Source of the DNA: Planctomycetaceae bacterium
GTDB lineage: Bacteria > Planctomycetota > Planctomycetia > Planctomycetales > Planctomycetaceae
Reading direction: 5' to 3'
Assembly: GCA_021732845.1 (NCBI GenBank)
Contig: JAKFUF010000030.1
Location: forward strand, 30,104-94,103
Length of the DNA stretch: 64,000 bases
How positions within the stretch are numbered: position 1 is the stretch's first letter; every line of letters starts with the position of its first letter. Below are positions 2,179 to 63,868 of this stretch, piece after piece. Both the position numbers and the translations under genes were made by a program. The notes under the pieces were generated by a model. The model searched no databases, was not told the DNA's origin, and saw nothing but the letters and a program-made list of their open reading frames with translations.

Positions 2179-2830
2179 GCCGCACTCGTCGATGGCGACA
2201 CAGATTGTGGAGGACATCGCTCCAACTCGGTATGCCCATCGATTCAGTCTTGAATCGATTCATCGCTGAATCAAATTCGGTCAGACTCGTCGGCGCTATT
2301 ACCCCGGCACGAAAGACTCGCACGGCGAAATCGCCCCGGGAGCCTTTGACCTGAACTCGGCGGTTTCTCATTCGTGGAGGATTGTGTGACTCGTGGTTCG
2401 ACCTTTCGTGCCTTTCGTGGTTCAGTGAACCACGAAAGGGCTCCCGGGTCGCTTTCGCCGTGCGAGTCTTTCGTGCCGGGGTAATAACGATCTACACCAA
2501 TTGTTTGAAATCTGGTTTTTGGTGGCTCACACAGCCTGAAAGATTTTGGAAGCCGTAACCGATGTCCAAAGAGGTCTTTCGGCAGCAGGTCACCACCGGG
2601 ACGGTTGGAGTTCCCTGTTTCCCGGCGTGGCTCAGGAACTTCAGCAAAGCCGCAGCCTGCTGGAAGACCAGTCCGGCTGGCCGGTCGCGACGGTCGAGCC
2701 TTGGTGTTGATCCACAGGATTCGAAGGCATGAATTCGGGACACCGAGTGCGGGTCATGCGCACGATGGCGAGCCGGTCCGCAGCGGTGTTCGGAGATCAT
2801 GGCTGGAGCTTCCGCCCACAAGCAGATCCG
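2179..2830. other. Intergenic stretch with an inverted repeat, no convincing gene
   Basis: About 650 bases lie between the stop of the secreted protein and the end of the small membrane gene on the minus strand. The left part is occupied by the inverted repeat at 2297-2486. The rest (2490-2830) holds open frames on both strands with no signal peptide, domain or ribosome-binding site that I can support. Two copies of the octamer GTGGCTCA occur here, at 2522 and 2627. Confidence 0.6.
2297..2486. repeat. Long imperfect inverted repeat with an internal hairpin
   Basis: The left arm (2297-2347) and the reverse complement of the right arm (2436-2486) match over 51 bases with about three mismatches. 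Both include the run CCCCGGCACGAAAGACTCGC. The 88-base loop holds a second, nearly perfect palindrome at 2411-2439 (CCTTTCGTGGTT against AACCACGAAAGG). The words CACGAAAG and CTTTCGTG recur through the element. It carries no protein-coding capacity. It could be a palindromic dispersed element, or a cruciform or RNA structure. Confidence 0.85.
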
Positions 2831-2956
2831 TCAGTCTTCATTCGAATTTTTGTTCTTTTTGGTGGCGAGGATCACCACGACGACGATGGGAATGGCGATG
2901 CAGGGCAATCCGCAGGCGGCGATGATAAGCAGTTCAAAGAAGCCGATGCCGACCAT
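2831..2956 (-). CDS. Small membrane protein (41 residues)
   Basis: The minus strand encodes a 41-residue protein that begins MVGIGFFELLIIAACG and ends in the polar tail KKNKNSNED. Residues 4-31 form one or two hydrophobic segments, with two cysteines and two prolines near the middle. The basic, Asn-rich tail predicts an inner-membrane protein with a cytoplasmic C-terminus. The ATG is preceded by AGGGGA nine bases upstream, a good ribosome-binding site. I recall similar short FFELL-type membrane peptides from planctomycetes, but this is recollection and not a database match. The function is unknown. Confidence 0.6.
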   Translation of the reverse strand: MVGIGFFELLIIAACGLPCIAIPIVVVVILATKKNKNSNED

Positions 2957-3123
2957 GTGAAGAATCCCCTGAATGGATGACTAAAGCGCGTTCATGAGTG
3001 GAAGTCAGATGCTGTCCAGCAACCTGGCAGACTGTGAAATCGGGAATCCGAAAATTGCCATTGATTTAGCCGCAGTGGGCATCAGCATTGTCGCCGTCAA
3101 TATGCGTTGAGACTTCGGCCGGC

Positions 3124-4623
3124 TCACATCGCCGCCTTGCGTCCCGGCACGCTGCGTTCGATATGTTCCGTCCCGCACGCACCGGCGGTGGGCAGCATTT
3201 TCATCGGGCTGCATAGTTGCCGCGGGTTGAAGGCCTGCCGCACGTCGGCCATCACGGCCAGGTCGTTGGCGGTGAACAGCTTGTCCATGAAGCTGATCTT
3301 TTCCACGCCGATCCCATGCTCCCCGGTGACGCTGCCGCCGAGGTCGATGCACTTTTCCAGGATCTCGTCGCTGGCCAACAATACCCGCCGAACCTGGTCC
3401 TGGTCGCGTTCATCGAACAGCAGAATCGGGTGAATGTTGCCGTCGCCCGCGTGAAACACGTTCACGATCCGCAGTTGGTGGCGGGCGCTGACTTCGGTGA
3501 TGTGCTGCAGGATTTCGGGCAGCTTGGTCCGCGGAACGACACCATCCTGCGTGCAGTAACTGGGGCTCAGCCGGCCGATGGCACCAAACGCCTGCTTGCG
3601 GCACTTCCACAAGAGCAACCGTTCCTTGGGTGTGTTTGCCTGCCGCACTTCACGCGCACCGGTCTCCTGACAGATCTGAATGATTTTGGCCGCCTCTTCG
3701 TCGACGGCCAGTTCCAGACCGTCGACTTCAATGAGCAGGACCGCCGCGGCGTCCAGCGGGAAGCCGAAGTGAAATGCAGCTTCAACGGCTTCGATGATCC
3801 CCTGATCCATCAGTTCCAGAGCGGCGGGAACGATGCCCGCGCCAATGATGTTGCTGATGGTTTGGGTGGCATCTTGAATCGAGTTGAAGACGCCAAGCAT
3901 GGTGCGGTAGGCCGCGGGATCGCGCGTGAGCCGCACGATGATCTTGGTGCATATGCCAAAGGTCCCCTCGTTCCCCACAAACAGCCCGGTCAGGTCGTAG
4001 CCCGGGCCGTCTTCAGCGACACCGCCGATCTGAGCCACGCTGCCGTCGGGCATCACCATTTCGGCCCCGAGGACATGGTTGACCGTCACACCGTACTTGA
4101 GGGTGTGCGGACCGCCGGAATTGGTGGCGAAGTTCCCGCCGATGGTGCAGGCCCCCTGGCTGCTGGGGTCGGGGGCGTAATGGTAGCCGGTCCCCTTGAG
4201 CCGGTTGGTGAGATGCACATTGACCAGCCCTGGCTCAACGATGGCATACCGGTCGCGCAGATTGATTTCAAGAATCTGCCGCATCCGTGTCAGGGCGATC
4301 ATCACTCCGCCGCCCACCGGCAGGCAGCCACCCGCCAGGCTCGTCCCCGCGCCCCGTGGCACAAACGGCACATCGTATTCGTTGCACAGTTTGACAATGG
4401 CGACGGCCTGATCGGTCGTGGTGGGAAACACCACCACGTCGGGCATGCGCTTTTCGATGACGAAGCCATCACACTCATAGACCAGCAGTTCGTCGCTGGT
4501 TTCCAGCAGGTTCTCGGCGCTGAACAAATCCCGCAGCTTTTTCAGAAACTCGGCAGCGAGCGGCCGGGCCTCCACGGAAACGGGGCTGTGCTGCGTCCGG
4601 ATTTCAGCGTTGTCGATACTCAC
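3124..4623 (-). CDS. glcD: FAD-linked oxidase, glycolate oxidase GlcD type
   Basis: This 499-residue flavoprotein belongs to the VAO/PCMH family and is closest in pattern to GlcD, which oxidises glycolate or D-lactate to the 2-oxoacid. The FAD-binding PRGAGTSLAGG loop lies at residues 89-99 and the diphosphate region IGGNFATNSGGP near 161-172. The FAD-oxidase C-terminal domain has HAGDGNIHP at 391-399 and GEHGIGVEK at 434-442. Translation starts at a GTG preceded by AGGAG about eight bases upstream. The usual partners GlcE and GlcF are not adjacent, so the electron acceptor is not evident here. D-lactate dehydrogenase is the main alternative. Confidence 0.9.
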   Translation of the reverse strand: MSIDNAEIRTQHSPVSVEARPLAAEFLKKLRDLFSAENLLETSDELLVYECDGFVIEKRMPDVVVFPTTTDQAVAIVKLCNEYDVPFVPRGAGTSLAGGCLPVGGGVMIALTRMRQILEINLRDRYAIVEPGLVNVHLTNRLKGTGYHYAPDPSSQGACTIGGNFATNSGGPHTLKYGVTVNHVLGAEMVMPDGSVAQIGGVAEDGPGYDLTGLFVGNEGTFGICTKIIVRLTRDPAAYRTMLGVFNSIQDATQTISNIIGAGIVPAALELMDQGIIEAVEAAFHFGFPLDAAAVLLIEVDGLELAVDEEAAKIIQICQETGAREVRQANTPKERLLLWKCRKQAFGAIGRLSPSYCTQDGVVPRTKLPEILQHITEVSARHQLRIVNVFHAGDGNIHPILLFDERDQDQVRRVLLASDEILEKCIDLGGSVTGEHGIGVEKISFMDKLFTANDLAVMADVRQAFNPRQLCSPMKMLPTAGACGTEHIERSVPGRKAAM

Positions 4624-4783
4624 CAGTCTCTCCTGAATTTAACAGCGGTGGTCAGCAGGGCGGCGTTGCGAATAGGGGTCAGCTCCTGCTGAGCCGCGAT
4701 AAACATCGCTCGCCAATTACGCGTATTGTTTTACTGCATTTACGCAAACAATTTTAACAAAATGCAGATCACCTGTTGCCCGC

Positions 4784-4803
4784 GGCTCTGGAGGACCAGA
4801 GCC
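4784..4803 (-). terminator. Possible hairpin terminator after the PVC cytochrome gene
   Basis: An 8-bp perfect stem (GGCTCTGG/CCAGAGCC) with a 4-base loop lies between the end of the minus-strand cytochrome gene and the start of glcD. No T-run follows on the minus strand, so intrinsic termination is uncertain. Confidence 0.35.
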
Positions 4804-4886
4804 CTCCCCCCACGTCGCCCGCCAAATCGAGGCATCCTTTTTACCCCAGTTATTCTCTCCTGACTGTCCCAACCGGGGTTCCTCGC

Positions 4887-7800
4887 TCACTGGCCGCTCA
4901 GCAGGTACGCGAGAATGTCGCGCAGCTCTTCCGGCGTCTTCACCAACCCATTGGGCATCGGCGAAACACTCTGCAGTTTGCGTTCTTCGATCTCCGCGGT
5001 GGGAATCGTGATCCGCGTGGCGTCGGTGAGGATCATTTCCAGTTTCTCGCCGGTTTCACCCACCACCAGGCCAGTCAAGACTTTTCCCTGCTTTGTTTCG
5101 ACTGTGGTCGCCTTGAACACCGGTGAAATCTGCTTGCTCGGCAGCAGCACCGATTCCACAAGATACGGCAGCGTGAACCGCTTGCCGGGCTCCGCGAGGC
5201 TCGGCCCGGCGTTCATTCCCTCTTCGGGTTTGACCGCATGGCACTTGGCGCATCCCAGTCCATTGGCACCGAACAGTTTCTTGCCGTTTTCGATATTTCC
5301 CAGCTTCACCGCCGCGGCCCAGTTCGTCTCCAAAAACTTGGGATCCAAGGCCATTGCTCCCGGAGTTGTGGCTGCTTCCTTCAACCGCGCGGCCAGCGAC
5401 CCGGCTTCAATCTTTTCCGGCAGCGACACCGCCAGCGGTTGCAGTGCGCGGTAGTGCAAGTACAGCCCATGCTCTCCCGTGCGGTTGCGAACTCGCACCA
5501 GCAGGTCGTTGCTGCCTGGCTGCAGGTCCAACACCACCACATCCTGAATCGGCAGGCCACCGCGCTCGATGTCATTGGTCCAAACCAGCCGGCCGTTGTG
5601 CCACACTTTCACTCCATCGTCCGAACCCACCAGCAGCATCGCCGTTTGCCGGGTGCCGCTCTCCATCCGCAGCGCGGCGTAGGACGATGTGTTGTCGCAT
5701 GGACCATACATCTCACGGAAATGGATCTGCCGCCCGAAGGTGACTTCCTTCCAGGTCAGCTCGCTGTTTTCCAGCTTGTAGCTGGCGGCAGGATCAAGCG
5801 GGCCGCGTTCGGGCGCGTGGATGGCGTCGAACCCCTTCCCACCATCGGCGAATGGCCCCACGACCCAGGTTTTTGAAATCGCGATCGGAGAGGAGGTCGA
5901 GAGCCGTTTGGTGGCGGTGTCCCGGCGAACTTGAGCCACGGCAGGTTCGATGGTCGAGTCGTTGAGCAGCGACAGGAAGTAGGCCGCCTGCAGCCGCACG
6001 GGCTCGCTTTCGTCACCCAGCCGGCCGACCAGCAATGCGAACAGTTTTTCCTGCTCTGGCGTGTGCTTGCCGGCTTTCCAATGCTCGGCGACAGTAAACA
6101 GTCCGATTTGCTTCTGGACGGTTCGCAGGTCTGCCGGCCTGTTTTCTGGCGAGTCGACAAACTGAATCTTGTAGGCGTCTTCGGCCCGCCAAGCCACGAG
6201 CGGCAGGCCGGCGGCAATCGGGCTGCCCGTTGGAGGGAGCGTCAGTTTGAAGCCAGCCGCCAGCACCCCCGCGAGGCGGTTCTTCGCGTCGCCCATCTGG
6301 CAGCGGTTGCCAATTTCGTCCCACGTCCCTTTCTCCGCGAGCAGGAGCGTCGCTGCCTGCCGCAGGTAGGTGTCTTCACTGACGGCGGCGGTGTTCAGAA
6401 CTTCCGCGGGGACAGGTTCGCCGGATTTCAAACCAAAGAATGCCAGGACAGCGGCTTGCCGCACCTGTGCATTCTCGTCCTTTAGCAGGGGACCAAAGGT
6501 GGCCAGCAGATCGGCGGCCGCTTGTTCCGCCATGCCGTCACTGAGCACACGCACTGCCTGCAGACGCACCATCGGATTGGCATCCTTCAACAGGGCCAGC
6601 AGCGCCGGCTGGGCCAGCGCGCCAAAGGCGGCCATGAGATACGGCAGGTGGACGCGGGCCGGATCGTCCGACTTGAGGGAGTCGAACAAGGCCATGAAGT
6701 TGATGCTCTTGTCCGTGGACCGCCGCTGCAATTCGACATGCGCGAGGTACCTTCGAGACCAGTCCGCCTGCGACAGTTCCGCCAGCAGCCGCTCCGTGGA
6801 AGCCTTCGGGGCATCGTACGACATGAAGGGATGCGTGGCCTTGTCATCGGCCCGGGTGATCATCACCAAGTCGCTTTTGTAGACGGGTGAACCTTCGTTT
6901 TGTGCCATGTAACAGATCGTGGCGAAGACCCGTCCCCCACGCCCCACGGTGACGCCCACGGGCCGCGCCTGATCGCGGCCAGCCAGCAGGTCGTGCTCGG
7001 TGCAGTGAAACGTCGAGCCGTGGTGGCTCAGCGGGTAGAACGTGACCTTGCGGGTACACCAGCGGGCGACCAACAGGCTGTTTTTCAACTCCGGCAGAAA
7101 GCCGTCGTTGTAGTACCACTGCCCCACCGGAACCGCCCGGCCAAGCGTGGTGATCATTGTTTCCAGCAGGTCGGCGCGGTCGGGAGTCTTCTCCCGCATC
7201 CAGCCTCGTGGCCAGTTGAAGTAGGCGTGTGGCGTGACGTGGTTCAGCCGTCCGGGAACATACTCTGCTGGCATCGACTCGTGGTCGTTGTCGTTCGTGA
7301 AGAGATTCCAATCCTTGTCGAACACCAGCCCGCAACTGTTGCGCAGGCCCCGGGCCACGACTTGCAGCCCGCTGCCGTCCGGCCTGCAGCGGAATACCGC
7401 GCCGACACCGGTGTAGGGTGTCTTCACCCAAGCCTCGTCTTTTGGCGTCTCCTTCAGATCGCTGCCGGGCGCGCGGCTGAACATTGTCCAGTGGCCCCAA
7501 TGGTCGGGGCGGCTGAAGTCGCCGTAGTACCACAACGGGTCGCCCATCGAGAAATACAGATCTCCGTCCGGCCCCCACGTCATCCCATGAAAGCACTGGT
7601 GGACATGCCCCAGCGGGACACCCCATACCAGCCGATGGGCGGACAGCCCCTTCCGCTGCACCCGCGCATTCGGCACCACATAAAGCGCGCTGACCGTCAG
7701 CAGGTACACGTCATCGCCGCGGATCTCAATGTCATACACCCACGTATGCTCCGGCAGCCGCAGCAACTCCTGCCGTGGCTCATACCCACCGTCCTCACGT

Positions 7801-8033
7801 GGCTCGTACACATACAAAGCCACGCGGCTGCCCACAAACAGGCGGCCGGTGCTGTCGGCTTTGACACCCAGAAACGACTCCGTGTCGGCCGAGTCGAGCT
7901 TCTCGACCCGCAGCCCTTCCGACACCGTGTTGTAGTCCAATTCAGCGGCGTGGCCTGAAGGGGCCGCGAGACACACCAGGCCCAGCAGACAGCCGGTCAC
8001 AGAGGCGAAGAGGGCAGAGATCCTGCGGTACAT
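4887..8033 (-). CDS. PVC-type membrane-bound dehydrogenase with HEAT repeats and C-terminal cytochrome c
   Basis: This 1048-residue exported protein starts best at MYRRISALFASV, where a signal peptide begins; an in-frame extension of 30 residues upstream lacks one. Domains in order are a six-bladed NHL/sugar-dehydrogenase-like beta-propeller (about residues 35-420), HEAT-like helical repeats (about 450-730), a PA14-like beta domain (GSDDGVKVWHNGRLVW), and a C-terminal c-type cytochrome with one CAKCH haem site. The architecture is characteristic of Planctomycetes and Verrucomicrobia. It probably acts in the periplasm, passing electrons from a polysaccharide or sugar substrate to its haem. The substrate is not known. 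Confidence 0.88.
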   Translation of the reverse strand: MYRRISALFASVTGCLLGLVCLAAPSGHAAELDYNTVSEGLRVEKLDSADTESFLGVKADSTGRLFVGSRVALYVYEPREDGGYEPRQELLRLPEHTWVYDIEIRGDDVYLLTVSALYVVPNARVQRKGLSAHRLVWGVPLGHVHQCFHGMTWGPDGDLYFSMGDPLWYYGDFSRPDHWGHWTMFSRAPGSDLKETPKDEAWVKTPYTGVGAVFRCRPDGSGLQVVARGLRNSCGLVFDKDWNLFTNDNDHESMPAEYVPGRLNHVTPHAYFNWPRGWMREKTPDRADLLETMITTLGRAVPVGQWYYNDGFLPELKNSLLVARWCTRKVTFYPLSHHGSTFHCTEHDLLAGRDQARPVGVTVGRGGRVFATICYMAQNEGSPVYKSDLVMITRADDKATHPFMSYDAPKASTERLLAELSQADWSRRYLAHVELQRRSTDKSINFMALFDSLKSDDPARVHLPYLMAAFGALAQPALLALLKDANPMVRLQAVRVLSDGMAEQAAADLLATFGPLLKDENAQVRQAAVLAFFGLKSGEPVPAEVLNTAAVSEDTYLRQAATLLLAEKGTWDEIGNRCQMGDAKNRLAGVLAAGFKLTLPPTGSPIAAGLPLVAWRAEDAYKIQFVDSPENRPADLRTVQKQIGLFTVAEHWKAGKHTPEQEKLFALLVGRLGDESEPVRLQAAYFLSLLNDSTIEPAVAQVRRDTATKRLSTSSPIAISKTWVVGPFADGGKGFDAIHAPERGPLDPAASYKLENSELTWKEVTFGRQIHFREMYGPCDNTSSYAALRMESGTRQTAMLLVGSDDGVKVWHNGRLVWTNDIERGGLPIQDVVVLDLQPGSNDLLVRVRNRTGEHGLYLHYRALQPLAVSLPEKIEAGSLAARLKEAATTPGAMALDPKFLETNWAAAVKLGNIENGKKLFGANGLGCAKCHAVKPEEGMNAGPSLAEPGKRFTLPYLVESVLLPSKQISPVFKATTVETKQGKVLTGLVVGETGEKLEMILTDATRITIPTAEIEERKLQSVSPMPNGLVKTPEELRDILAYLLSGQ

Positions 8034-8143
8034 GAAGAACTCAATCGTCAGGGACGGTCGATGGGGAATCAGCATTGGCAACCTCAACCCGCTCATCTTG
8101 TCGAGAATCGGGGATCCAAGCAACCAACGGCATCTCTACTTCT

Positions 8144-8332
8144 CTACTTCAAGTCTTGACGGTTCCGGTGGTACGAAATTGCCTTGTGTCGCTCCACCAC
8201 GAAATCCCAGTCGATCCGGTGCGGGGGATTGAGGTAGTGCTGATAGGCGGCAGCCATCTGACGGGCGGCTTCGTCATGCGGGACACCGCCGAAGCCCGCT
8301 CCCATGGCAGGAAAAGCCAGCACCGGGAACGC
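8144..8332 (-). pseudogene. C-terminal remnant of a macro-domain protein
   Basis: The minus strand keeps a reading frame containing VLAFPAMGAGFGGVPHDEAA and, further on, AAYQHYLNPPHRIDWDF. This matches the end of an ADP-ribose-binding macro domain, where the GxGFGG loop contacts the ligand. The first two thirds of such a domain are missing. The frame runs straight into the end of the M56 peptidase gene and has no credible start or ribosome-binding site. I read it as a truncated pseudogene; a short functional peptide is less likely. Confidence 0.6.
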
Positions 8333-8385
8333 GCAGCGTTCACCTGCGCCGCGGAATGGCTCGCGATTCCCCATTCGATCCGCAG

Positions 8386-9492
8386 TCACCGGGCGACTTC
8401 GGCGGCGACGGGCGGGACGACCACCTGTAGTGGCCCGCCAAAGATCACGGGATGAAGAGGGAGGAGCGCGGCCATCAACAGGCAGACGCCACGCGCCGCA
8501 TGAGTCCAGTTTTGCGGACGAGGACCGCGCATGATGTGCGTCAGTCGCTGCCGGAGGAATGGGACATCGCCCAAGCCACAGGCAATGGCAGGCCGGCAGG
8601 GCCGGGCTTCCGCGAGAAAATCGATCGTCGTCAACAGTGCTTCCGCATAGCGGCGTGGCTCAGCCGAGAAGTGGCTGACGACGCAGGCATCACAGCATTC
8701 CTCCTCGGCAATCTCGATTTCACGCCGTGCCCACCACACCACCGGATTCCACCAATACAGGCCTGTGGCCAGCAGTTCCAGAACGCGCACCCAATGGTCC
8801 CGCCGACGGCAGTGCGCCAGTTCATGGGTCAGCAGCGTGTGGCGTGCGGCGGCCTCCATTCGCGCCAGCAAGTCGCGGGGGAAAAGAATCGTCGTGGCTG
8901 GTCCCACGGCCCAGACCATTGGTGAAAACACACCGTCAACAATGCGGATGGGAGGGGCTTTGCGCAAACCGAGCCGCCGCGCCAAAATGTGTGCCTCGGC
9001 CTGGAGTTCTGGCGGAGCCAGTTCAGCAACGCCCACCCATCGGGAAAACTGCCAGATGCGCCAGCCCTGCAGTGTAAACCAGGCACCGCTGACTGCCGCC
9101 CAGCAGACCATGAGGGCCACTCCGGCCTGATTCCACGGAATCTGCTGGAGCAGGGACGGGCTTTCGTGTGGAACTTGCCAAATCCCCACGGAATGCGTCA
9201 ATTCGGCCATCTCGTCAGCGCGGGACCACGGCATCAGGCTGCTTGTCGGCCAGCGAGTTTCGACAGATTCACGCGTGGATTGTCCAAAGGCCGTCCAGAC
9301 AGAGGGCAGGCTCCAGCCCAAGGAGAATTGAACGACAGGCGGGGTCAGCAGCTTGATGAGCACCAACGTCCATAGGATGTGTGTGACGGTGGAGCGGCGG
9401 AAGAAGCGGGAGGCAGCCCAAGCGGTGGCTGCCAAAAGCAATGCGAGTATCGCATTCGTGAGGGCAAGATCGAGGAGTGAGCGCACAAACAC
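8386..9492 (-). CDS. BlaR1-like M56 zinc metallopeptidase, no penicillin-sensing domain
   Basis: The 368-residue protein has N-terminal membrane helices (residues 5-30 and 36-58), a further helix near 122-142, and the zinc-peptidase motif HELAH at residues 223-227. A downstream glutamate region EIEIAEEECCDACVV supplies the third zinc ligand, as in family M56. The protein stops soon after a final hydrophobic segment, so the extracellular beta-lactam sensor of true BlaR1 is absent. In BlaI-M56 pairs the peptidase is thought to relieve repression by causing BlaI cleavage. The blaI-like gene lies directly upstream, 117 bases away. The inducing signal is unknown. Confidence 0.87.
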   Translation of the reverse strand: MFVRSLLDLALTNAILALLLAATAWAASRFFRRSTVTHILWTLVLIKLLTPPVVQFSLGWSLPSVWTAFGQSTRESVETRWPTSSLMPWSRADEMAELTHSVGIWQVPHESPSLLQQIPWNQAGVALMVCWAAVSGAWFTLQGWRIWQFSRWVGVAELAPPELQAEAHILARRLGLRKAPPIRIVDGVFSPMVWAVGPATTILFPRDLLARMEAAARHTLLTHELAHCRRRDHWVRVLELLATGLYWWNPVVWWARREIEIAEEECCDACVVSHFSAEPRRYAEALLTTIDFLAEARPCRPAIACGLGDVPFLRQRLTHIMRGPRPQNWTHAARGVCLLMAALLPLHPVIFGGPLQVVVPPVAAEVAR

Positions 9493-11625: not shown

Positions 11626-13041
11626 TTACTTTCTCTTTCCGTAGTGACGAGTGGGCTTGGGGGCTTCGCCCTGCACCCGTCGTGAGCCACCGCCACCGGC
11701 TGGCGCTCCGCCTTCCACCTGAACCTGTTGCGGATTCAGGATGTAGGAGATCGCCTCTTCCCAGCTTGGGACGTTGTCGTAGCTGATCGGTTCGATGCCT
11801 TCGTCGTCATCTTCCACCGAACTGCTGGCAACCTTTGGCCGATCTTCCTCGTCGTCTGGAATTTCCTCGAAGTCGGATTCGATCAGCTCGGAACTGCCCT
11901 CCTGTGTGTCGCGGCGGTTGCGGCTTCTTCCACGGTCATTCCGACCGCGGGACCGTTCACGCCCCTTGGGGCGAGGCGCGGCGACGGGTTGGTCTGCTTC
12001 CAATTCGACATCGTCCGTGTCTTCCGCCTCAGCAGTCGACTCTTCTTCGTCATCCGCTTCCTCTTCGTCGTCCTCATCACGTCGGGCAGTGACAGGTGCT
12101 GACTCCTCACCACCCCGCCCGCGCCGGCGGCGGCGACGGCGACGTTTCCGTGGCTGACCATCCTCGGAGGTCTCGGTAGAACCAGCATCGCCACCAACCG
12201 CGTCCTCTTCGGCTTCGATCGGATCCAGGTCATCGTCTTCGGGCTCGGGACGCGCACGTTCGGAGCGACGATTTTCTTCACCAGACACACCCGCCCCAAA
12301 ACCATCGTCAGGGGGGAGTACTGGTTCCGCAGGACGCCGACGGCTGGATGAGGACCTTGAGGGTCGTTCCGGGCGGTCGGCGGAAGAACGCTCACCGGAT
12401 GAGCGTTCGGAAGCACCTCGTTCTGGCTTGGCTGCCGCAGGTTCGGATGGGGCTGATGCGGGGGCACGGGCTGGTCGATCTGAGCGCGCGGGGCGGTCTT
12501 CCCGCTGTTCCGATCGAGTTTCGCCACGGCCTTCAGAGCGACCACCGGAACGGCTTCCACCACGTGAACCGGATCGACCGCCGCGCGAATCCTCGCGCCG
12601 TCTTGGACTCGACCGGCCTTCGCGCGGGGCTGCTGTCTCTGGCTCAGCCTCTTTGGCTGCCGCAGATGGAGTGCCGCCGCTGGTTTCGTCCCAATCCCAG
12701 TCCTGAAGGACATCCCAGAACTTGTCGTCGGCCTTGGGGGCCGGAGTTTCCGGAGCCTTGGCGACAGGCACGGTGGACTCGACCTCTTCGTCGTCCTCTG
12801 CCTCGGAAAACCCGCAATCATCGTCGGAGTCGTCCGCGCTCAATTCGTCGTCGACCGAATCCTCTACATCCACGAGGTCCAAGTCGTCACTGGCGGGATC
12901 AAAATCGGCAAATTCGGCAGGCACTGGCTGGGGCGCGGCAGGCCGGGTGGAATGCTCTTTGCCAAATTCATTGGCAAACAGCCCCTCCGCCAAGGATTCC
13001 CACGGGTCATCTTCCGCATGATTGGCATGATCTTTATTCAT
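11626..13041 (-). CDS. Large intrinsically disordered protein with acidic and RG/SR-rich blocks
   Basis: The 471-residue protein is almost entirely low complexity. Residues 1-110 are acidic (DDLDLVDVEDSVDD). Residues about 140-230 are rich in RGG, SR and RS repeats. A run of nine arginines follows (RKRRRRRRRRGRGG), embedded in acidic stretches. Only the C-terminal 70 residues look ordered, with the segment PISYDNVPSWEEAISYILNP. The alternation of acidic and RGG-type basic blocks recalls RNA-binding scaffold regions such as that of RNase E, but no RNase domain is present. The NYN ribonuclease gene lies directly upstream on the same strand (gap 111 bases), and a terminator follows, so the two probably share a transcript. 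Confidence 0.75.
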   Translation of the reverse strand: MNKDHANHAEDDPWESLAEGLFANEFGKEHSTRPAAPQPVPAEFADFDPASDDLDLVDVEDSVDDELSADDSDDDCGFSEAEDDEEVESTVPVAKAPETPAPKADDKFWDVLQDWDWDETSGGTPSAAAKEAEPETAAPREGRSSPRRREDSRGGRSGSRGGSRSGGRSEGRGETRSEQREDRPARSDRPARAPASAPSEPAAAKPERGASERSSGERSSADRPERPSRSSSSRRRPAEPVLPPDDGFGAGVSGEENRRSERARPEPEDDDLDPIEAEEDAVGGDAGSTETSEDGQPRKRRRRRRRRGRGGEESAPVTARRDEDDEEEADDEEESTAEAEDTDDVELEADQPVAAPRPKGRERSRGRNDRGRSRNRRDTQEGSSELIESDFEEIPDDEEDRPKVASSSVEDDDEGIEPISYDNVPSWEEAISYILNPQQVQVEGGAPAGGGGSRRVQGEAPKPTRHYGKRK

Positions 13042-36637: not shown

Positions 36638-36750
36638 TTTTACAAGACTCTGCCAGCCGTAGCCCGAGAACCCGCAATGGCAGGCATTGCCTGGCAACTC
36701 AGTTTTCCTGCGCGCTGATGGGCCGTGGCTCAGACCATTAAAAGCACGGC

Positions 36751-41414: not shown

Positions 41415-41496
41415 TGATCTCCCGGCAGGCCAGTCCTTCCAGCCACAAACCCTGTACCCCATGTGTCCCGTCGCCAAGAATTCACCGGAGTCCCGC

Positions 41497-52018: not shown

Positions 52019-54127
52019 CTATTTCGTGGCTTTCGGCTCGGGCTTGGTTTCCACAGGCTTTGGCACGTGACCCGCCAGGCCGGGTACATCTTCCTCTCCG
52101 GCGGGAACGGTGATCGACGAGCCCTTGAAGGCGTCGCCGAGGGCTTCATAACGGCCACCCAGGTGGACTGCCAGAAACGCTTCGGTGACGGCCTGGAACG
52201 CGAGGGAATTTGGCGGACGGGCGAAGCCGTGGCCTTCATCGGGGAACAGGACGTAGGTCACGGGGATCTTGTGCGACTGCATCGCCTTCACGATTTGATC
52301 GGCTTCCGACTGCTTGACGCGGGGGTCATTCGCGCCTTGTCCGATCAGCAGCGGACGCTGGATCTTGGTTACCAGATTCAACGGCGACCGCGACTCCAGG
52401 AACTTGCGGCCTTCGTCCGTCATATGATCGCCCACGCGATCTTTGAACAACTGGATCGCGGGTGCCCAGTAGGGCGGAATCGTCTTGAGCAGCGTAATCA
52501 GATTGGAAGGGCCGACGATGTCGATGCCACAGACGAAGCGGTCGGGTGTGAATGTCAGACCGACCAGCGTGGCGTAGCCACCGTAGCTGCCACCCATGAT
52601 CGCCACTTTCTTCGGATCCGCGATCTTTTCGGCGACGGCCCAGTCGACAGCGTCGAGCAGGTCGTCGTGCATTTTCGCCGCCCACTCCTTGTTGCCGGCG
52701 TTCAAAAACTTCTTGCCGAAGCCGGTTGAGCCCCGGAAGTTGACGCTGAGCACGGCGTAGCCACGGTTGGTGAGGAACTGATGTTCCGGGTCCAACCCCC
52801 AGGCATCCCGCGCCCAGGGTCCGCCATGCACGTTGAGAATCAGCGGCAGTGGCTTGTTCGGCCGGCCATCACCGTCCGGGTCGCTTTCCGGCGGCAGTGT
52901 CAGGTAGCTCACCAGGCTCAGGCCATCGCGCGACTTGAGGACCACGGGGTGCATCTTGGCCAGCTTCCACGCTTCCAGATCCTTGCGGTTCGTGAACAGG
53001 AATTTTTCCTTGCCGGTGTCACGGTCGTAGACGTAATACCGCACCGGGCCATTGTCGAGCAGGAAGGCGACCACCCAGACCCTGTCATCCAGCGTGCGGC
53101 TGGCGACAGTGATGTCGCCGTCGGCGATCTTGCGGAGAATCTTGAAGTCTTTCTCGATCGCCTTGTCCTGAAACTCCCAAATCGTCCGGTCGTAGGTGAA
53201 CGACACGCCCTGAATGGTGTTCTCGGTGGGGTGCGCCATGATGCCGCCGGCGTCCGCCAGCGGATTCTCGGCGATCACGGTTTGCTTGCCGGTCTTGAGG
53301 TCAAACTGCGTGATCGCTCCCGTGTCCCGGCCGCGGCTGTCGATCAGGTAGAGAATCTCGCCCGTTTTGTCGAACCCAACGGGATTTGTCGTCAGGGAAT
53401 CCTCCTGCGGGATGTGCAGGAATTCCTTCCACTTGTCCGCGCCATCCGGCTGCAGAATCAATGTTCCGCCGTCTTCGGCATACTTTTGGGCCAGACGGAC
53501 TTTGAAATCATCGTCCGTCAGAAAACCGGTGAACTCGGTATTCTTCTGGAGCAGCGTTCGTTCACCCGTGGCGATGTTGACCCGATGCAGATCGTGGAAT
53601 TGCTCGTCGCGGTCGTTCAGCCCGATGATGACTTCATTCGGGAACCGGTGGCTCACCGAATCGATCTGCGCCGCGACGTTCTTGAACGGGGTCAGATCCT
53701 TCGTCTCGCCAGCCGCCAGATCGACACTGTAAACATGCGTGTTCTCGTCGCCGTTGGCATCCTGCGAGTACAGAATGTGCTGGCTGGTGTAGGCCCAGAA
53801 GTAGGACCGGATGCCGCGGAACTTGTCCTTGGTGACCGGCTTGGCTTTTGAGGGGTCGCCGACTGGCCCAACCCAAATATTGAGCACGCCTTCCACCGGC
53901 GCAATGTAGCTGAGCTGCTTGCCGTCGGGGCTGATCCGCGCGGCGGCCTTGTCGGGGTTGCCGAACAGGACCCGCCGTGGAATGAGGCCGGTGTCCTTGC
54001 CCGCGGCTGTCGGGCTGGGCTCCGCCGCGAAACTGGAAACTCCCACAAGCATCGCTCCGATCCAGACACAGGTCCGGAGAACGGGAAGGGAAAAGAACCG
54101 TGAACCAAGGCGTAGCATACCGCTCAT
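52019..54127 (-). CDS. S9-family prolyl-oligopeptidase-type serine peptidase, secreted
   Basis: The 702-residue protein starts at MSGMLRLGSRFFSLPVLRTC; a frame 18 codons longer is not needed. A signal peptide precedes a seven-bladed propeller of the S9 type (DGKQLSYIAPVEGVLNIWV, DANGDENTHVYSVDLAAGET). The catalytic alpha/beta-hydrolase domain begins near residue 415, with VHGGPWARDAWG, NFRGSTGFGKKF and the nucleophile GGSYGG with Ser at about 514. The acid and histidine lie in GANDPRVKQSEAD and PDEGHGF. It hydrolyses short peptides outside the cytoplasm. Dipeptidyl-peptidase or acyl-aminoacyl-peptidase types cannot be separated by eye. Confidence 0.9.
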   Translation of the reverse strand: MSGMLRLGSRFFSLPVLRTCVWIGAMLVGVSSFAAEPSPTAAGKDTGLIPRRVLFGNPDKAAARISPDGKQLSYIAPVEGVLNIWVGPVGDPSKAKPVTKDKFRGIRSYFWAYTSQHILYSQDANGDENTHVYSVDLAAGETKDLTPFKNVAAQIDSVSHRFPNEVIIGLNDRDEQFHDLHRVNIATGERTLLQKNTEFTGFLTDDDFKVRLAQKYAEDGGTLILQPDGADKWKEFLHIPQEDSLTTNPVGFDKTGEILYLIDSRGRDTGAITQFDLKTGKQTVIAENPLADAGGIMAHPTENTIQGVSFTYDRTIWEFQDKAIEKDFKILRKIADGDITVASRTLDDRVWVVAFLLDNGPVRYYVYDRDTGKEKFLFTNRKDLEAWKLAKMHPVVLKSRDGLSLVSYLTLPPESDPDGDGRPNKPLPLILNVHGGPWARDAWGLDPEHQFLTNRGYAVLSVNFRGSTGFGKKFLNAGNKEWAAKMHDDLLDAVDWAVAEKIADPKKVAIMGGSYGGYATLVGLTFTPDRFVCGIDIVGPSNLITLLKTIPPYWAPAIQLFKDRVGDHMTDEGRKFLESRSPLNLVTKIQRPLLIGQGANDPRVKQSEADQIVKAMQSHKIPVTYVLFPDEGHGFARPPNSLAFQAVTEAFLAVHLGGRYEALGDAFKGSSITVPAGEEDVPGLAGHVPKPVETKPEPKATK

Positions 54128-54509: not shown

Positions 54510-55376
54510 ATGACCAAACCCTCGGAACGTGAAGAACTTGAGTCGCTCATCCTCGATCTTCAGCAGCAGTTGTTGCAGGCGCAAAAGCTCAGCACGGTCG
54601 GCTCGCTGGCTTCGTCCATCACGCATGAGTTCAACAACATCCTGACGACGATCATCAACTACGCGAAGCTTGGCCTGCGGCACAAAGACACGGCCACCCG
54701 CGAAAAATCGCTGGAGAAGATCCTTCAGGCGGGCCAGCGCGCCAGTCGGATCACCACCGGCATGCTCTCTTACGCCCGCCGCGGAGTCGATCGGCGGGAA
54801 CCAGTCAGCCTCGTGGCTCTCGTCCAAGACGTGCTCGTGCTGGTCGAGAAGGATCTGCAGATCCACCGCGTTAAGCTCGAAACCGTGTTTGAGGGTGAGC
54901 CACAGGCGACGATCAACGCCAGCCAGATCCAGCAGGTTGTGCTGAATCTGATCATCAACGCCCGGCAGGCGATGGCTTCGGGCGGCCAGTTGCAAGTCGC
55001 GGTGCGTGCCCAGGGAGAGATCGCGGAAATCTCCATTCGCGACTCCGGATGTGGCATTCCACCGGAAACCCTGCGGAAAATCTTTGAACCCTACTTCACC
55101 ACCAAATCCGCCGATGCCCAAGGTCAGGGCGGAACCGGCCTCGGGCTGTCGATGGCCAAGGATGTGATGGAGAGCCACCAGGGGCGGATCCGGGTGGACA
55201 GTGCGGTGGGAAAGGGGACGACGTTTACCCTCAAATTCCCAGTGTCACGGACCGCCACCGCCGAGACGGCGGCAAAGCCAGCGGATACGAAGGTGACAAC
55301 GGCCAAACCCACGTCGAAGGCCACCAAGACGGCCGCGACCGCACCACTCGCCATCGCTCCCAGCGCTCAGAAATGA
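54510..55376 (+). CDS. Soluble sensor histidine kinase without a sensor domain
   Basis: The 288-residue protein starts at MTKPSEREELESLILDL. It has a coiled-coil start, then the H-box SSITHEFNNIL with the phospho-accepting His39, an N-box VVLNLIINARQAM near 155, a G1-box RDSGCGIPP and a G2 region QGGTGLGLSMAK with ATP-lid features. The type is NtrB-like (HisKA plus HATPase). No membrane helix or PAS/GAF domain is present, so it must respond through a partner. The last 40 residues are Ala/Lys/Thr-rich and disordered. No response regulator gene is adjacent, so it is an orphan. Confidence 0.9.
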   Translation: MTKPSEREELESLILDLQQQLLQAQKLSTVGSLASSITHEFNNILTTIINYAKLGLRHKDTATREKSLEKILQAGQRASRITTGMLSYARRGVDRREPVSLVALVQDVLVLVEKDLQIHRVKLETVFEGEPQATINASQIQQVVLNLIINARQAMASGGQLQVAVRAQGEIAEISIRDSGCGIPPETLRKIFEPYFTTKSADAQGQGGTGLGLSMAKDVMESHQGRIRVDSAVGKGTTFTLKFPVSRTATAETAAKPADTKVTTAKPTSKATKTAATAPLAIAPSAQK

Positions 55377-55460: not shown

Positions 55461-56426
55461 ATGCCCGAAACGACACCGCCGTATCTCCGCTTGTACCGCA
55501 CCATGCAGGTCATCCGGCAAACCGAAGAGCAATTGGCGAAGTCGCACCAGCGGGGGCTGATCCACGGGGCCTGCCACACCTATGTGGGGCAGGAGGCGAT
55601 CGCCACGGGGGTGTGTGCGCATCTGCGGCCGAGTGATGTGGTCTTCAGCACCCACCGCGGGCATGGTCATGCACTGGCGAAGGGTGTGACGCCAGCGGCC
55701 CTGATCGCGGAACTGTTTGGGCGAGCCACCGGCTGCTCGAGCGGACGCGGTGGCAGCATGCACCTGTTCTCTCCCGAAGTGGGGATGATGGGGACCAGCG
55801 GCATCGTGGGGCCGTGCATCCTGCAGGCGGCGGGGGCGGGCTACAGCTTCAAGCTGCTGAAATCTGACAACGTGGGCGTCGCATTTTTTGGCGATGGCGC
55901 GGTCAACAATGGGGCGTTTCATGAGGGGCTGAACATGGCCTCGATCTGGAAACTGCCCTCACTGTTCATCTGCGAAAACAACCAGTTCGCCACTGAAGTG
56001 CCGTTCAAATACGCTGCCGGCAATCCGACGGTGGCCTCCCGCGGTGCAGCTTATGGCATGCCGGGGATCGAGGTGGATGGCAACGATGTTCTCGCCGTCT
56101 ACGAAGCAGCCAAGACCGCGATTCAGCGGGCCAAGGCGGGTGAGGGGCCGACACTGATCGAGTGCCTGACCTACCGCACGCGGCCACACTCCGAGGGTAT
56201 GGGTGATTTCGGTTACCGCAGCCGCGAAGAGGTGGAGGCCTGGAAGGCCCGCTGCCCGATTCGCCGCTTCGCCGAAAAGCTGGTCGCGGAGTCGCTAGCC
56301 ACCGTGGACGAATTGGCAAAGATCGAGGCCGAGGTGCAGGCGATGGTGGTCGAAGCCCAGGCGTTCGCCGAAAACAGCCCGTGGCCGGATCCGTCCACCG
56401 CGGCGACGCATGTGTATGCCCAGTGA
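55461..56426 (+). CDS. 2-oxoacid dehydrogenase E1 alpha subunit (pyruvate or acetoin type)
   Basis: The 321-residue protein is a thiamine-diphosphate-dependent E1 alpha chain. The TPP/Mg motif is GDGAVNNGAFHEGLNMAS near residue 137, ending in ICENNQFATE. Substrate-side motifs HRGHGHALAKG near 59 and GRGGSMHLFSP near 95 match PDH/AcoA-type chains. It heads an operon with E1 beta and E2; no lipoamide dehydrogenase is in the window. Pyruvate dehydrogenase is the default reading, with acetoin dehydrogenase as an alternative because of the short chain. A repeat of family C lies between this gene and E1 beta. Confidence 0.88.
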   Translation: MPETTPPYLRLYRTMQVIRQTEEQLAKSHQRGLIHGACHTYVGQEAIATGVCAHLRPSDVVFSTHRGHGHALAKGVTPAALIAELFGRATGCSSGRGGSMHLFSPEVGMMGTSGIVGPCILQAAGAGYSFKLLKSDNVGVAFFGDGAVNNGAFHEGLNMASIWKLPSLFICENNQFATEVPFKYAAGNPTVASRGAAYGMPGIEVDGNDVLAVYEAAKTAIQRAKAGEGPTLIECLTYRTRPHSEGMGDFGYRSREEVEAWKARCPIRRFAEKLVAESLATVDELAKIEAEVQAMVVEAQAFAENSPWPDPSTAATHVYAQ

Positions 56427-56480
56427 GCCACGCTGCCGATGCACGGTAGGCTTGCAGTGATTCGCCAAAGGATCGGTCGG

Positions 56481-57699: not shown

Positions 57700-57774
57700 T
57701 TTTTGACAAGAACGCAGGCGCGGCCGCCAAGATCTTGGCGAATGCCGACCCCAGACACGTTTGGACAGGATCGC

Positions 57775-59034
57775 ATGTTTCCCCTCAGCATTCCGCGCCT
57801 CGGCTGGACGATGGAAGAAGGCACGTTCGTCGAGTGGCTCAAACGCGACGGCGACAGCGTCAAGGCCGGCGATGCCCTGTTCGTGATCGAGGGCGACAAG
57901 GCGGCGCAGGATGTCGAGGCCGCCGAAGCAGGGATCTTGAGGATTGCCCCCGATGCGCCGAGTCCCGGTTCAATTGTCCCGGTCGGCCGGGAACTGGGCT
58001 GCATTTTGAGCCCCGGCGAGGTGCCGCCTTGGGAAGCGGCCGCCAGTCCGGCACCGGCGGAAACCAGCGCCCGGCCTGTGGCAACTGCCGCCAGCGCGGA
58101 AACTCCAAGCCCCACCGTGGCCGTGGTTCCGCCCGCTCCCCGCCGGAGTTCGCCGCTCATCACCCCCCGCGCCAAACGTGTGGCTCAAGAACATTCCGTC
58201 GGCTGGAAGGTGTTGAACGGCTCCGGACGAAACCAGCGGATTCGCGAACGGGATGTCCGGGCTGCAATCTGCACCACTGGTGGCTCAACCCTGCATCTCA
58301 CCTCCAGATCTGAACGGCCGGACCAGGGGCGAGCCACGGTTCAGCCGCTGTCGCCACTGCGGCAGAAGATTGTGCAGCGGTTGTCTCAAACCGCCCGCAC
58401 CGTGGTCCCGGTGACACTCAACACCGCTGTCGATGCGACGAATCTTGTGAACTTTCGTCAGCAGTTCGTCGCTGCGGCAGCAAATGATGCCAAAGGCAGC
58501 CAGGCCGTCCCCAGCGTCACCGACCTGTTGTTGAAGCTGACCGCCGCCGCTTTGGAGACGCACCCACAACTGAACGGCCACTGGAGCGACACCGGGATTC
58601 GCCTGTTTGATGAGGTTCATATCGGACTGGCGGTCGACACCGATGCGGGACTTTTGGTTCCGGTCCTTCGCGACGTTGCCCGAACCAGCCTGCGGGAACT
58701 GGCCACAAGAAATCGCGAACTGGTGGCCGCCGCCCGCGCCCGGCGGCTGTCCGCCGATGAACTGCAGGGCAGCACGTTCACGATCACGAATTTGGGAATG
58801 CTGGGGATCGACGGGTTCACGCCGGTGCTCAACTCCCCCGAAGTGGCAATTCTGGGGGTGGGCCGCATCGTGCGCAGCCCCGTCGCCGGTCCTGGCGACC
58901 AGATTGTCATTCGCGACCGGCTGACGCTGAGCCTGACGTTCGATCACCGCGCCCTCGACGGAGCCCCCGCGGCGCGATTCCTGCAGACGCTGACGCAGGC
59001 AATTGAGAACCCGGCCGCGTGGCTGGTGTCCTGA
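57775..59034 (+). CDS. Dihydrolipoamide acyltransferase E2 component
   Basis: I start this 419-residue protein at MFPLSIPRLGWTMEEG, after AGGA; a frame from 57703 is longer but unsupported. Residues 1-80 are a lipoyl domain with the lipoyl-lysine in EGDKAAQDVE near 42. A long Pro/Ala linker precedes a peripheral-subunit-binding segment (ITPRAKRVAQEHSVGWKVLNG) near 125-165. The catalytic domain ends with FDHRALDGAPAARFL (HxxxDG). It transfers acyl groups from E1 to CoA. It completes the E1alpha-E1beta-E2 operon. Confidence 0.92.
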   Translation: MFPLSIPRLGWTMEEGTFVEWLKRDGDSVKAGDALFVIEGDKAAQDVEAAEAGILRIAPDAPSPGSIVPVGRELGCILSPGEVPPWEAAASPAPAETSARPVATAASAETPSPTVAVVPPAPRRSSPLITPRAKRVAQEHSVGWKVLNGSGRNQRIRERDVRAAICTTGGSTLHLTSRSERPDQGRATVQPLSPLRQKIVQRLSQTARTVVPVTLNTAVDATNLVNFRQQFVAAAANDAKGSQAVPSVTDLLLKLTAAALETHPQLNGHWSDTGIRLFDEVHIGLAVDTDAGLLVPVLRDVARTSLRELATRNRELVAAARARRLSADELQGSTFTITNLGMLGIDGFTPVLNSPEVAILGVGRIVRSPVAGPGDQIVIRDRLTLSLTFDHRALDGAPAARFLQTLTQAIENPAAWLVS

Positions 59035-62080: not shown

Positions 62081-63367
62081 TCAAGATCGCGCAAACGTCG
62101 ATTCACGCGTCGGCTGGTACCGAATCGCCAAATGTGGGGTCTCGATCCGTTTCTGTCCCGTGCCCAGCGACCGCACGCCGGCTTCCACGAGGCCTGTCGT
62201 CAGCAGCGTCCGTTCCAAGGGATACGGCGATTTGCCGGTCAGAAAAGTCTCCTCGGCCTTGGACATTAGCGAGGCGGAATAGACGACATTGGGGTTGGGC
62301 GGCAGATGGAACAGCGTCGACAGTGGCTCAGCTTCGCCCTTCAGCCTGGCGGCGAACGTGAAATCTCCGACCAGCCCGTTCATCAGCAGCATGGTCGCCT
62401 TGGTGCCATCCGCGTATTCAAACCGGTAGGCAATCGGCTCCTTGACCCATTCCCGCATCTGCGCGGGAGTGGGATAACGGTCGCTGAAGGTGTCCGGCTG
62501 TGCCAGCTCGTGGCTCCGCGACAGGCAGGCTTCAAAGAGTTTGGGATCCCAGCCACCGGCGGCCCAACTCCCTGTGTCCATCGCCTTCCAGACCGCCGGC
62601 CCTTGGATGGCGTGCATCGCCACCACTCCTGTTTCACCACCGCGCCGCCGTTCGGCCATGCATTGAATGACTTCCAGGTTGTGGAAGTCGTAGCTGTCGA
62701 TGGCCCCCGGCGAGATGCACATCAGTTCTTCAACATCTGCCCCCAGCGGCATTTCAATCGCGGGCATCCGCCACGTGACCGGCAGCGACGAACCGGCGGT
62801 GAAGGCGAACCCCAGTTCGCGCGAGATGTCATACATCTCCTTGGCGTAGTCCCAGTTCCACGACAGGTGCTTGTCGTTGAAGACCGGCAGGGTCTTCTTC
62901 TCCTGGCGAAACACGTCGGTGACTTGCTTGAAGAACTCGTAGCGCGGGTATTTTGTCTGCTTGTATTGGCTCAACTCATAGTTGCCGTGCTCGCCGATGA
63001 TCAGCACGGCATCCACCGCCAGTTCCTTCCCTCCACACCGCAGGGCCTCGGCGACACTTTTATAGAGGGGGAACCCGAATTCGGCAGAACGTTTGCGGGC
63101 CAGGTCGTTCTCGGGAAACTGGTCCACATAGGCCGACACCACATCAATGGCCGGCTTATGCCAGCGACCGTTGATGGGGTAGCCGACAATGAACCGCTCG
63201 GCCATGTGCCACGCATGCGATCTGTACCGCCACTCCGTGGTCACCACCGCCAGCCGCTTGCGCTTCGCCGGTTCCTCACCAGCAGCGAACACGAGAGAAC
63301 CACCCGCGAGCCCCGCGCCCACCACTCCCGCACCCACCGATTCAAGAAACGTCCGCCGATTCAACAT
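62081..63367 (-). CDS. Tat-exported protein, unclassified planctomycete family
   Basis: The 428-residue protein starts with a twin-arginine signal (NRRTFLESVGAGVVGAGLAGG). The body has VVTTEWRYRSHAWHMAERFIVGYP, VDAVLIIGEHGNYELSQYKQTKYP, and YDFHNLEVIQCMAERRRGGETG. The NRRTF start and the surrounding pattern suggest a Rossmann-like exported oxidoreductase or binding protein, but I cannot name a family. It probably acts in the periplasm after folding with a cofactor in the cytoplasm, as Tat export implies. Confidence 0.65.
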   Translation of the reverse strand: MLNRRTFLESVGAGVVGAGLAGGSLVFAAGEEPAKRKRLAVVTTEWRYRSHAWHMAERFIVGYPINGRWHKPAIDVVSAYVDQFPENDLARKRSAEFGFPLYKSVAEALRCGGKELAVDAVLIIGEHGNYELSQYKQTKYPRYEFFKQVTDVFRQEKKTLPVFNDKHLSWNWDYAKEMYDISRELGFAFTAGSSLPVTWRMPAIEMPLGADVEELMCISPGAIDSYDFHNLEVIQCMAERRRGGETGVVAMHAIQGPAVWKAMDTGSWAAGGWDPKLFEACLSRSHELAQPDTFSDRYPTPAQMREWVKEPIAYRFEYADGTKATMLLMNGLVGDFTFAARLKGEAEPLSTLFHLPPNPNVVYSASLMSKAEETFLTGKSPYPLERTLLTTGLVEAGVRSLGTGQKRIETPHLAIRYQPTRESTFARS

Positions 63368-63539
63368 GTTCCGCCTTTTTCAATATTCCAGTGGCTCAGA
63401 ACGCAGGCGTTTGGGGATGAAAACGCATCGGCGCGGGCCGATGGATGAGATCCTAGCGAACGCGACCGGGACTGGCCAGCGGCCGAGTTTTAGGTTCCGA
63501 CCGGAATCGCGTCGCACTTCTTCATTTGTCACACAATCA

Positions 63540-63836
63540 CTGCTAGATTCACTCACACCCCTCGGAATGTGGACCACCCTCACCCGCCAGCCCCGCGGCA
63601 TGACCGAGCCACTGCATCCAGAACAAATGCTTACCCGTCAACAGGCCCTGGCCCTCTACACCATCAACAATGCCTACCTCACGTTTCAAGAAAATGACAA
63701 AGGCAGCCTGGAACCCGGAATACTCGCCGACTTCGTGATCCTCACCAAAGATCCGCTGACCTGCTCGCTCGACGAACTGCGTGACATGACCGTGGAGGAA
63801 ACGTGGCTGGGAGGAAAACGGGTGTGGAAGAGGTGA
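63540..63836 (+). pseudogene. C-terminal remnant of an amidohydrolase (YtcJ-like family)
   Basis: A plus-strand reading frame ends with LTRQQALALYTINNAYLTFQ and ADFVILTKDPLTC, the well-known C-terminal region of amidohydrolase family 3 (YtcJ type). The preceding PLGMWTTLTRQPRGM also matches. The first 450 or so residues, including all metal ligands, are missing; upstream the frame loses all similarity. The remnant retains an intact stop. It is a truncated pseudogene. Confidence 0.7.
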
Positions 63837-63868
63837 GAGGGGCTGAGCCACTTTTTCAGCGGCTGCAT

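Follow-up and report, generated by a model that had tools for sequence, protein, structure and literature searches.

The uptake words of Haemophilus and Neisseria are reported to show no orientation bias, to lie partly in reading frames and to accumulate by drive (PMC1939737, PMC2397512, PMC3630211, PMC2346458). In the published accounts, such words are enriched in non-coding DNA (PMC1939737, PMC2397512) and evenly spaced (PMC1939737), those of the Pasteurellaceae are biased to gene ends (PMC2346458), and a mutational scan of the Neisseria word gave a graded effect around a core (PMC3630211). The families named as carrying uptake words are the Pasteurellaceae and the Neisseriaceae, which are regarded as convergent in this respect (PMC12616744). 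Here we describe an octamer, GTGGCTCA, in a stretch of 64,000 nucleotides from a Planctomycetaceae bacterium (assembly GCA_021732845.1, contig JAKFUF010000030.1, positions 30,104 to 94,103; hereafter the window) and in the genome from which the stretch comes. The octamer works most like an uptake-signal sequence for natural transformation, and we propose it as a putative one, a proposal to which we give an even chance.

The window lies within contig 15 of the assembly (9,251,679 bases in 262 contigs; completeness 95.68%, contamination 1.53%) and contains GTGGCTCA 37 times (26 plus, 11 minus), exactly as counted and placed in an earlier, sequence-only reading of the same DNA. Dinucleotide shuffles of the window gave a mean of 2.56 copies and a maximum of 6 (100 shuffles). 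The whole assembly contains the word 1,947 times in forward and 1,932 times in reverse orientation, i.e., 3,879 copies or approximately one per 2.4 kb, against 439 (212 + 227) for the reversed word; the form CGTGGCTCA occurs 2,001 times (1,008 + 993) against 82 (33 + 49) for its reversed form. The strong over-representation proposed from the window thus holds, and the excess of GTGGCTCA is real and genome-wide. The detailed counts below refer, unless another scope is given, to a sample of 1.262 Mb of the genome comprising ten contigs, including the window. When the 8-mers of this sample are ranked by z with an order-3 Markov model, GTGGCTCA comes first (506 observed against 58 expected). An order-6 model, in contrast, predicts nearly as many copies as are observed (506 against 445, z 2.9), since the 7-mers contained in the word share its enrichment.

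What is enriched is not a hard octamer but a graded motif of nine bases around GTGGCT, (C)GTGGCT(C)(A). Relative to a model derived from masked sequence, the enrichment is 24-fold for CGTGGCTCA, 14-fold for GTGGCTCA (506 against 35.7), and 5.5- to 6.1-fold for GTGGCTC with C, G, or T as the next base. Each of the nine possible single changes at positions 1, 4, and 5 reduces the count to about chance (0.73 to 1.38); those at positions 2, 3, and 6 give 0.88 to 2.73, and position 7 is looser, with changed forms at 1.9 to 6.2. The base preceding GTGGCTCA is C in 54% of the copies. It is these chance counts after core changes, together with the graded edges, that define the nine-base unit. All NGTGGCTNN words pooled number 2,274 against 621, and this excess of 1,653 corresponds to one per 0.76 kb. 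Forms with 0, 1, and 2 mismatches are enriched 18.2-, 2.58-, and 1.04-fold, the corresponding maxima among 40 permuted words being 2.65, 2.68, and 2.03. The sequence-only reading had taken the octamer for the real unit and the heptamer GTGGCTC with another final base for far less enriched. The octamer does lead the 8-mers at order 3, but its strictness dissolves into the graded nonamer, as the order-6 comparison also indicates; the other heptamer forms are indeed less enriched, but not unenriched, as the window has 34 of them, 14 plus and 20 minus, where 9.8 are expected.

Genes were called with a hexamer script written for the analysis, and "predicted gene" refers to those calls. Genes carry 0.394 copies of GTGGCTCA per kb and intergenic DNA 0.389, with values from 0.34 to 0.42 per kb over four size classes of intergenic gaps. 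Coding copies number 386, against 42.6 after synonymous codons were shuffled within each gene (100 shuffles, maximum 56). A loss of the enrichment after correction for codon and dipeptide use, which had been contemplated when only the window was known, was therefore not observed, and the signal stays. The copies lie in different frames, both sense and antisense, as had been described from the window: the sense frames hold 100, 59, and 86 and the antisense frames 0, 49, and 92. The zero in antisense frame 0 arises because the antisense word there is a stop codon; with frame 0 excluded, sense and antisense hold 145 and 141 copies, respectively. Foreign or atypical genes were rejected as carriers of the word, as the quartiles of coding typicality (0.349, 0.495, 0.396, and 0.329 per kb) show no consistent trend. 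Taken together, the genome-wide count, the synonymous-codon control, and the absence of shared flanks for most copies (see below) support a DNA-level signal of the general type to which Chi, the FtsK-orienting sequences (KOPS), and uptake words belong.

The effect of the word on proteins was followed in three window proteins that contain nine words, each aligned with its 119 best-listed homologues, one of the first set being apparently a paralogue from the same assembly. All nine words are situated in columns with at most 2% gaps and have therefore arisen by substitution, not insertion. Conservation is equal inside and outside the words, with a mean residue share among homologues of 0.58 and 0.59, respectively. 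Six of the nine words contain a residue found in at most 6% of the 119 homologues, such as the changes LCH to LSH and VAR to VAQ, compared with ~34% at random positions (p 0.05-0.11). It is suggestive only that words may have been completed at the expense of the protein consensus.

We consider that an uptake signal fits best because the orientation, density, and graded edges of GTGGCTCA match those of the Haemophilus and Neisseria words and because competence and pilus-type genes are present. The genome encodes DprA, a ComEC with three domains that scores over the NCBIfam cut-off, and two PilT-family ATPases that pass the curated threshold. On contig C40, genes of PilB/GspE, PilT, PilB/GspE, and PilC type form a run, after which come proteins that bear N-methyl pilin signals, two scoring over the Pfam cut-off and two below. 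The comEA and pilin genes that the sequence-only reading had suggested looking for thus have counterparts here, the former as a ComEA-like helix-hairpin-helix protein of 149 amino acids on contig C13; there are also eight secretin matches. In the mechanism that we propose, GTGGCTCA on extracellular DNA would be bound by the DNA receptor of a competence machine resembling a type IV pilus, possibly a pilin-like protein that reads the motif. Fragments with the motif would enter the cell and recombine, and the cell would thereby prefer DNA of its own lineage. Such an uptake bias, acting as a molecular drive, would have multiplied the word through point substitutions, proteins included.

Several observations weigh against an uptake signal. 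GTGGCTCA shows no excess in non-coding DNA, unlike the known uptake words as described (PMC1939737, PMC2397512), and no bias to gene ends, since of the 386 coding copies 39 fall in the first tenth of a gene and 22 in the last; the variant CGTGGCTC (48 and 54 of 494) likewise has no consistent bias along genes. The spacing of the word is over-dispersed, with a coefficient of variation of the gaps of 1.18 and a variance/mean of 1.31 in 10 kb bins, whereas even spacing is reported for uptake words (PMC1939737). Inverted pairs at most 50 bases apart account for 11 of 496 neighbour pairs, in contrast to the ~10% reported for uptake words. An excess that declines with mismatch load has also been reported for the latter, but the one-mismatch excess of 2.58 falls inside the range of the permuted words. 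For CGTGGCTC, a weak heterogeneity of strand between contigs was detected (p 0.018), with neighbours alike in 306 cases and unlike in 306. Moreover, ComEC is present in 21 of the 21 genomes of the family searched, and competence genes, being ordinary in the family, therefore do not explain why the word is in such excess in the source genome only.

The spacing is mildly clustered, with 35 neighbour pairs at most 100 bases apart against ~20 expected. At the other extreme, the longest stretch free of GTGGCTCA in the sample (C3:25306-52253) measures 27 kb, for which the mean gap predicts ~0.008 occurrences. It contains 17 predicted genes, of which eight were scanned; six match ordinary families and two are without a match, and there was no mobile-element match among these eight.

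The source genome was compared with 549 distinct other planctomycete genomes, 58 of which were searched with GTGGCTCA and the remainder with CGTGGCTCA alone. None of the 549 approaches its numbers, which is the outcome, for these genomes, of the comparison with related genomes that the sequence-only reading had proposed. Among the 58 genomes (36 from the family, 22 from the class), none is comparable: the highest count of GTGGCTCA, in G047, is 219 and 224 on the two strands, but there the reversed word reaches 273 and 290. The top ratios to the reversed word are those of G029 (61/72 vs 27/19), G032 (144/144 vs 60/48), and G005 (163/147 vs 58/60). Searches with CGTGGCTCA gave a top strand count of 79 in 169 other genomes of the family and of 85 in 391 other genomes from the phylum; the ratio in G121 is conspicuous (64 and 67 vs 16 and 22 reversed). 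Within the family pool searched with CGTGGCTCA, the source genome is the only member of its genus. The relatives' own over-represented words were sampled in nine genomes (58.7 kb of G005 and 80 kb of each of the other eight), and no dialect-like counterpart of GTGGCTCA was found in them. In the whole genome of G121, CAAGGGGG occurs 1,334 and 1,353 times against 278 and 294, and most copies sit in hairpin repeats whose flanks are conserved and which resemble repetitive extragenic palindromic (REP) elements (first 80 kb of C1, loci L149-L152). The word CGTGTAAG of G068 lies mostly in one tandem-repeat region (L180-L183), GCCTGGGAA of G001 mostly in hairpins (L157-L160), and CAAGCATG of G032 mostly in repeat-like hairpins (L184-L187). 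Viral contigs rich in GTGGCTCA gave 86 loci with a median of one cluster each, and no convincing phage of the host was found among them. It may be, with a little under even probability, that this is a third, independently evolved uptake-signal system, situated in the Planctomycetota and confined to one genus-level lineage, in which a word for self-recognition would have spread through a genome of 9 Mb, would have rewritten hundreds of protein positions and would possess its own pilus-borne receptor.

The equal density in genes and between them, and the large surplus over the synonymous-codon expectation in each of the allowed frames, would also be expected if GTGGCTCA were the site of another genome-wide DNA-binding or DNA-modifying protein, such as a nucleoid organiser or an orphan methyltransferase of the kind suggested for HIP1, or the product of a mutation or repair bias, in each case unrelated to uptake. 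HIP1 (highly iterated palindrome) of the cyanobacteria is a precedent for such a genome-wide octamer (PMC4390886). The edge-graded pattern of GTGGCTCA, however, resembles a receptor motif. The usual orphan methyltransferases act at palindromic sites, and GTGGCTCA contains no palindrome of four or more bases and so offers no usual site. We judge an explanation of this kind unlikely.

Somewhat less probable, and also unlikely, is that GTGGCTCA is the Chi of an AddAB helicase-nuclease, at which the degradation of DNA at breaks would switch to recombination. The recombination helicase-nuclease that had been named as worth looking for has candidates in the genome, an AddA-like protein (1,216 amino acids) and an AddB-like protein (1,155 amino acids, with AddB N-terminal and nuclease domains), encoded on separate contigs, whose NCBIfam AddA/AddB scores lie below the curated cut-offs; the word is also non-palindromic and over-represented, as Chi is. 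The orientation of the copies argues against this function. It was tested contig by contig, as the chromosome is unclosed and the direction of replication unmapped. When 22 tiles of 50 kb are considered, a fraction of 0.586 of the copies is on the majority strand, where random orientation gives 0.589 and a 75:25 signal 0.751, whereas under the same script Chi of E. coli K-12, the positive control, has 36 of 45 copies on the majority strand in four pieces of 50 kb, with 25 like and 16 unlike neighbours. Neighbouring copies of GTGGCTCA are alike in 244 cases and opposite in 252, which differs from a 75:25 signal at p = 2e-9, and the strand ratio is homogeneous among contigs (p 0.16). The skew of 26:11 that the sequence-only reading had noted in the window is a local fluctuation (p = 0.02 for the window alone) that is absent over the 22 tiles. 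In addition, the excess of ~9- to 14-fold, depending on the model, compares with an observed/expected ratio of 2.29, from another model, for E. coli Chi (PMC3784561). PDDEXK_1 nucleases were found in 21 of the 21 genomes examined from the family and the class, in several cases as AddAB-like pairs lying side by side, but a comparable excess of the word is seen in none of the other genomes searched. As ComEC is equally general, the presence of genes permits both an uptake signal and a Chi but explains neither the word nor its uniqueness. Adjoining the AddB-like gene is an ATPase gene (L170:11382-12488) whose best NCBIfam matches, all below the cut-off, are defence ATPases (MAD3, retron Eco8 effector).

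The copies might alternatively be remnants of a REP-like interspersed repeat, which we think very improbable. Some of them do stand at one end of head-to-tail repeats of 83-84 bases that continue in GC-rich sequence (C5:52055-52230, C5:64537-64720, and C6:701-790; loci L057, L058, and L021). All seven neighbour pairs at most 30 bases apart are inverted, three of them in paralogous copies, and repeats drive the different words of the relatives G121, G001, G032, and G068. However, a 30-base flank with 70% or more identity to the flank of another copy was seen for only 40 of 505 copies, the information in the flanks is small except at the base before GTGGCTCA and the nearest neighbouring positions, and the nine words in the three aligned proteins all lie in nearly gap-free columns. 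An interspersed repeat family was rejected for most copies on these few shared flanks and hairpin pairs. Long repeats inside the sample comprise 10.2 kb with 14 words, too few for a mobile-DNA control. Transcription terminators were likewise rejected, the inverted pairs within 50 bases being limited to the 11 of 496 mentioned above.

KOPS are strand-polarised. As a non-palindromic octamer with a 26:11 skew in the window, GTGGCTCA could be taken for such a segregation signal directed toward the terminus, but there is no polarity over 1.26 Mb, neighbours are randomly oriented, and the strand of the word is not correlated with GC skew (62 windows, rho -0.16, p 0.22; the skew itself is weak in this genome), so that a KOPS-like role is extremely improbable. 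Among the three classes named by the sequence-only reading, uptake words therefore fit best, KOPS are unsupported, and Chi is weakened, the last two owing to the absence of polarity. Finally, an excess due to codon, dipeptide, or composition bias, for which the preference of common codons for some frames and the close order-6 expectation could be quoted, is excluded by synonymous shuffles within genes, which keep the proteins and codon usage, and by codon shuffles; the 439 reversed words genome-wide and the intergenic density equal to the genic one also speak against it.

The window itself illustrates the distribution of the copies. Eight of them lie between genes, in agreement with the number estimated earlier: 2522-2529 (+), 2627-2634 (+), 35046-35053 (-) followed 19 bases on by 35065-35072 (+) in the opposite orientation, 36725-36732 (+), 48637-48644 (-), 63391-63398 (+), and 63844-63851 (-). 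The gene families recognised in the window include PSD1, PSCyt, DUF1501, a heme/HEAT-repeat protein, peptidase S9, and DUF3419, the first three being consistent with a planctomycete. The heme/HEAT-repeat gene (4887-8075) carries one sense copy at 5932-5939 (-) and two antisense copies at 7023-7030 (+) and 7775-7782 (+). The PSD1/PSCyt gene (43471-45858) has copies at 45003-45010 (+) and 45256-45263 (+) and an antisense copy at 45812-45819 (-), the DUF1501 gene (45906-47288) has one at 46370-46377 (+), and the peptidase S9 gene (52019-54052) has one at 53648-53655 (+). Several copies on the plus strand also occur together in gene 30638-32473 (31009-31016, 31286-31293, and 32309-32316) and in the predicted genes 50044-51612 (51334-51341 and 51424-51431) and 57742-59034 (57834-57841, 58180-58187, and 58280-58287). 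Single plus-strand copies are found at 8655-8662 in predicted gene 8386-9210, 21156-21163 in 21000-22769, 24274-24281 in 23868-24872, 28124-28131 in 27811-28242, 36604-36611 in 36376-36633, 42187-42194 in 41461-43194, and 62323-62330 in 62081-63367. On the minus strand, single copies are found at 4031-4038 in predicted gene 3124-4623, 11683-11690 in the low-scoring predicted gene 11626-12288, 32788-32795 in 32609-33340, 40297-40304 in 40058-40444, and 54896-54903 in 54510-55376, and the copy at 56424-56431 spans the stop of predicted gene 55461-56426.

For the DUF3419 gene, the nearest relative found in named genomes belongs to a Planctomycetaceae metagenome assembly, with 66% identity, and no relative was found in the viral contigs. 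One viral locus chosen for a close pair of words, L210 (IMGVR_UViG_3300005613_000619), carries at 4485-9404 seven copies of GTGGCTCA in 10.2 kb, where the word is the top 8-mer; this may be chance, or the contig may come from a phage whose host shares the word. A different word, GCGTTAGC, occurs 37 times against 4 under the order-3 model, approximately nine-fold over expectation, and possibly represents a second, separate repeat family.

DNA exchange in planctomycetes seems little studied. In the limited literature collection that we searched, no paper contained the octamer as a whole word, and none contained "DNA uptake sequence" together with "planctomycet"; for planctomycete competence, this collection gave only matches that are off-topic by title and the start of the abstract. 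If the uptake interpretation is true, a third origin in another phylum would provide a test of molecular drive versus selection for uptake words. Even with another function, a word with equal genic and intergenic density, present in all allowed frames and in excess in one of the 550 genomes searched, is a strong case of a DNA-level force reaching proteins.

Compared with known systems, GTGGCTCA shares with KOPS the nature of a short non-palindromic word but differs in the lack of strand polarity. Like the REP or hairpin repeats exemplified by CAAGGGGG in G121, it is an over-represented octamer without strand preference, but CAAGGGGG is found mostly in hairpins with conserved flanks and GTGGCTCA mostly is not. 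HIP1 (GCGATCGC) of the cyanobacteria is also a genome-wide and highly over-represented octamer; however, HIP1 is palindromic and methyltransferase-linked (PMC4390886), whereas GTGGCTCA is non-palindromic. In the case of Chi (GCTGGTGG), which acts with RecBCD or AddAB, the resemblance lies in a non-palindromic over-represented octamer and in the encoded AddA- and AddB-like proteins, and the differences are the absence of polarity, the stronger excess, and the fact that the word is not in excess in the other genomes searched although PDDEXK_1 nucleases are widespread in the family. The uptake signal sequence (USS) of the Pasteurellaceae is a different word in a different phylum, and unlike it GTGGCTCA shows no non-coding or gene-end excess, is unevenly spaced, and has few inverted pairs; the excess of GTGGCTCA and CGTGGCTCA, ~9- to 24-fold by model and word, is weaker. 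Nevertheless, both are short non-palindromic words in very many copies, on both strands without orientation bias and often within genes (PMC1939737). The DNA uptake sequence (DUS) of the Neisseriaceae, read by the ComP receptor, differs in that no dialect-like counterpart of GTGGCTCA was found in the nine sampled relatives, whereas GTGGCTCA resembles the DUS in its strict inner positions, its graded edges, and the presence of pilus-type genes, and the dialects of the DUS are themselves lineage-limited (PMC3630211).

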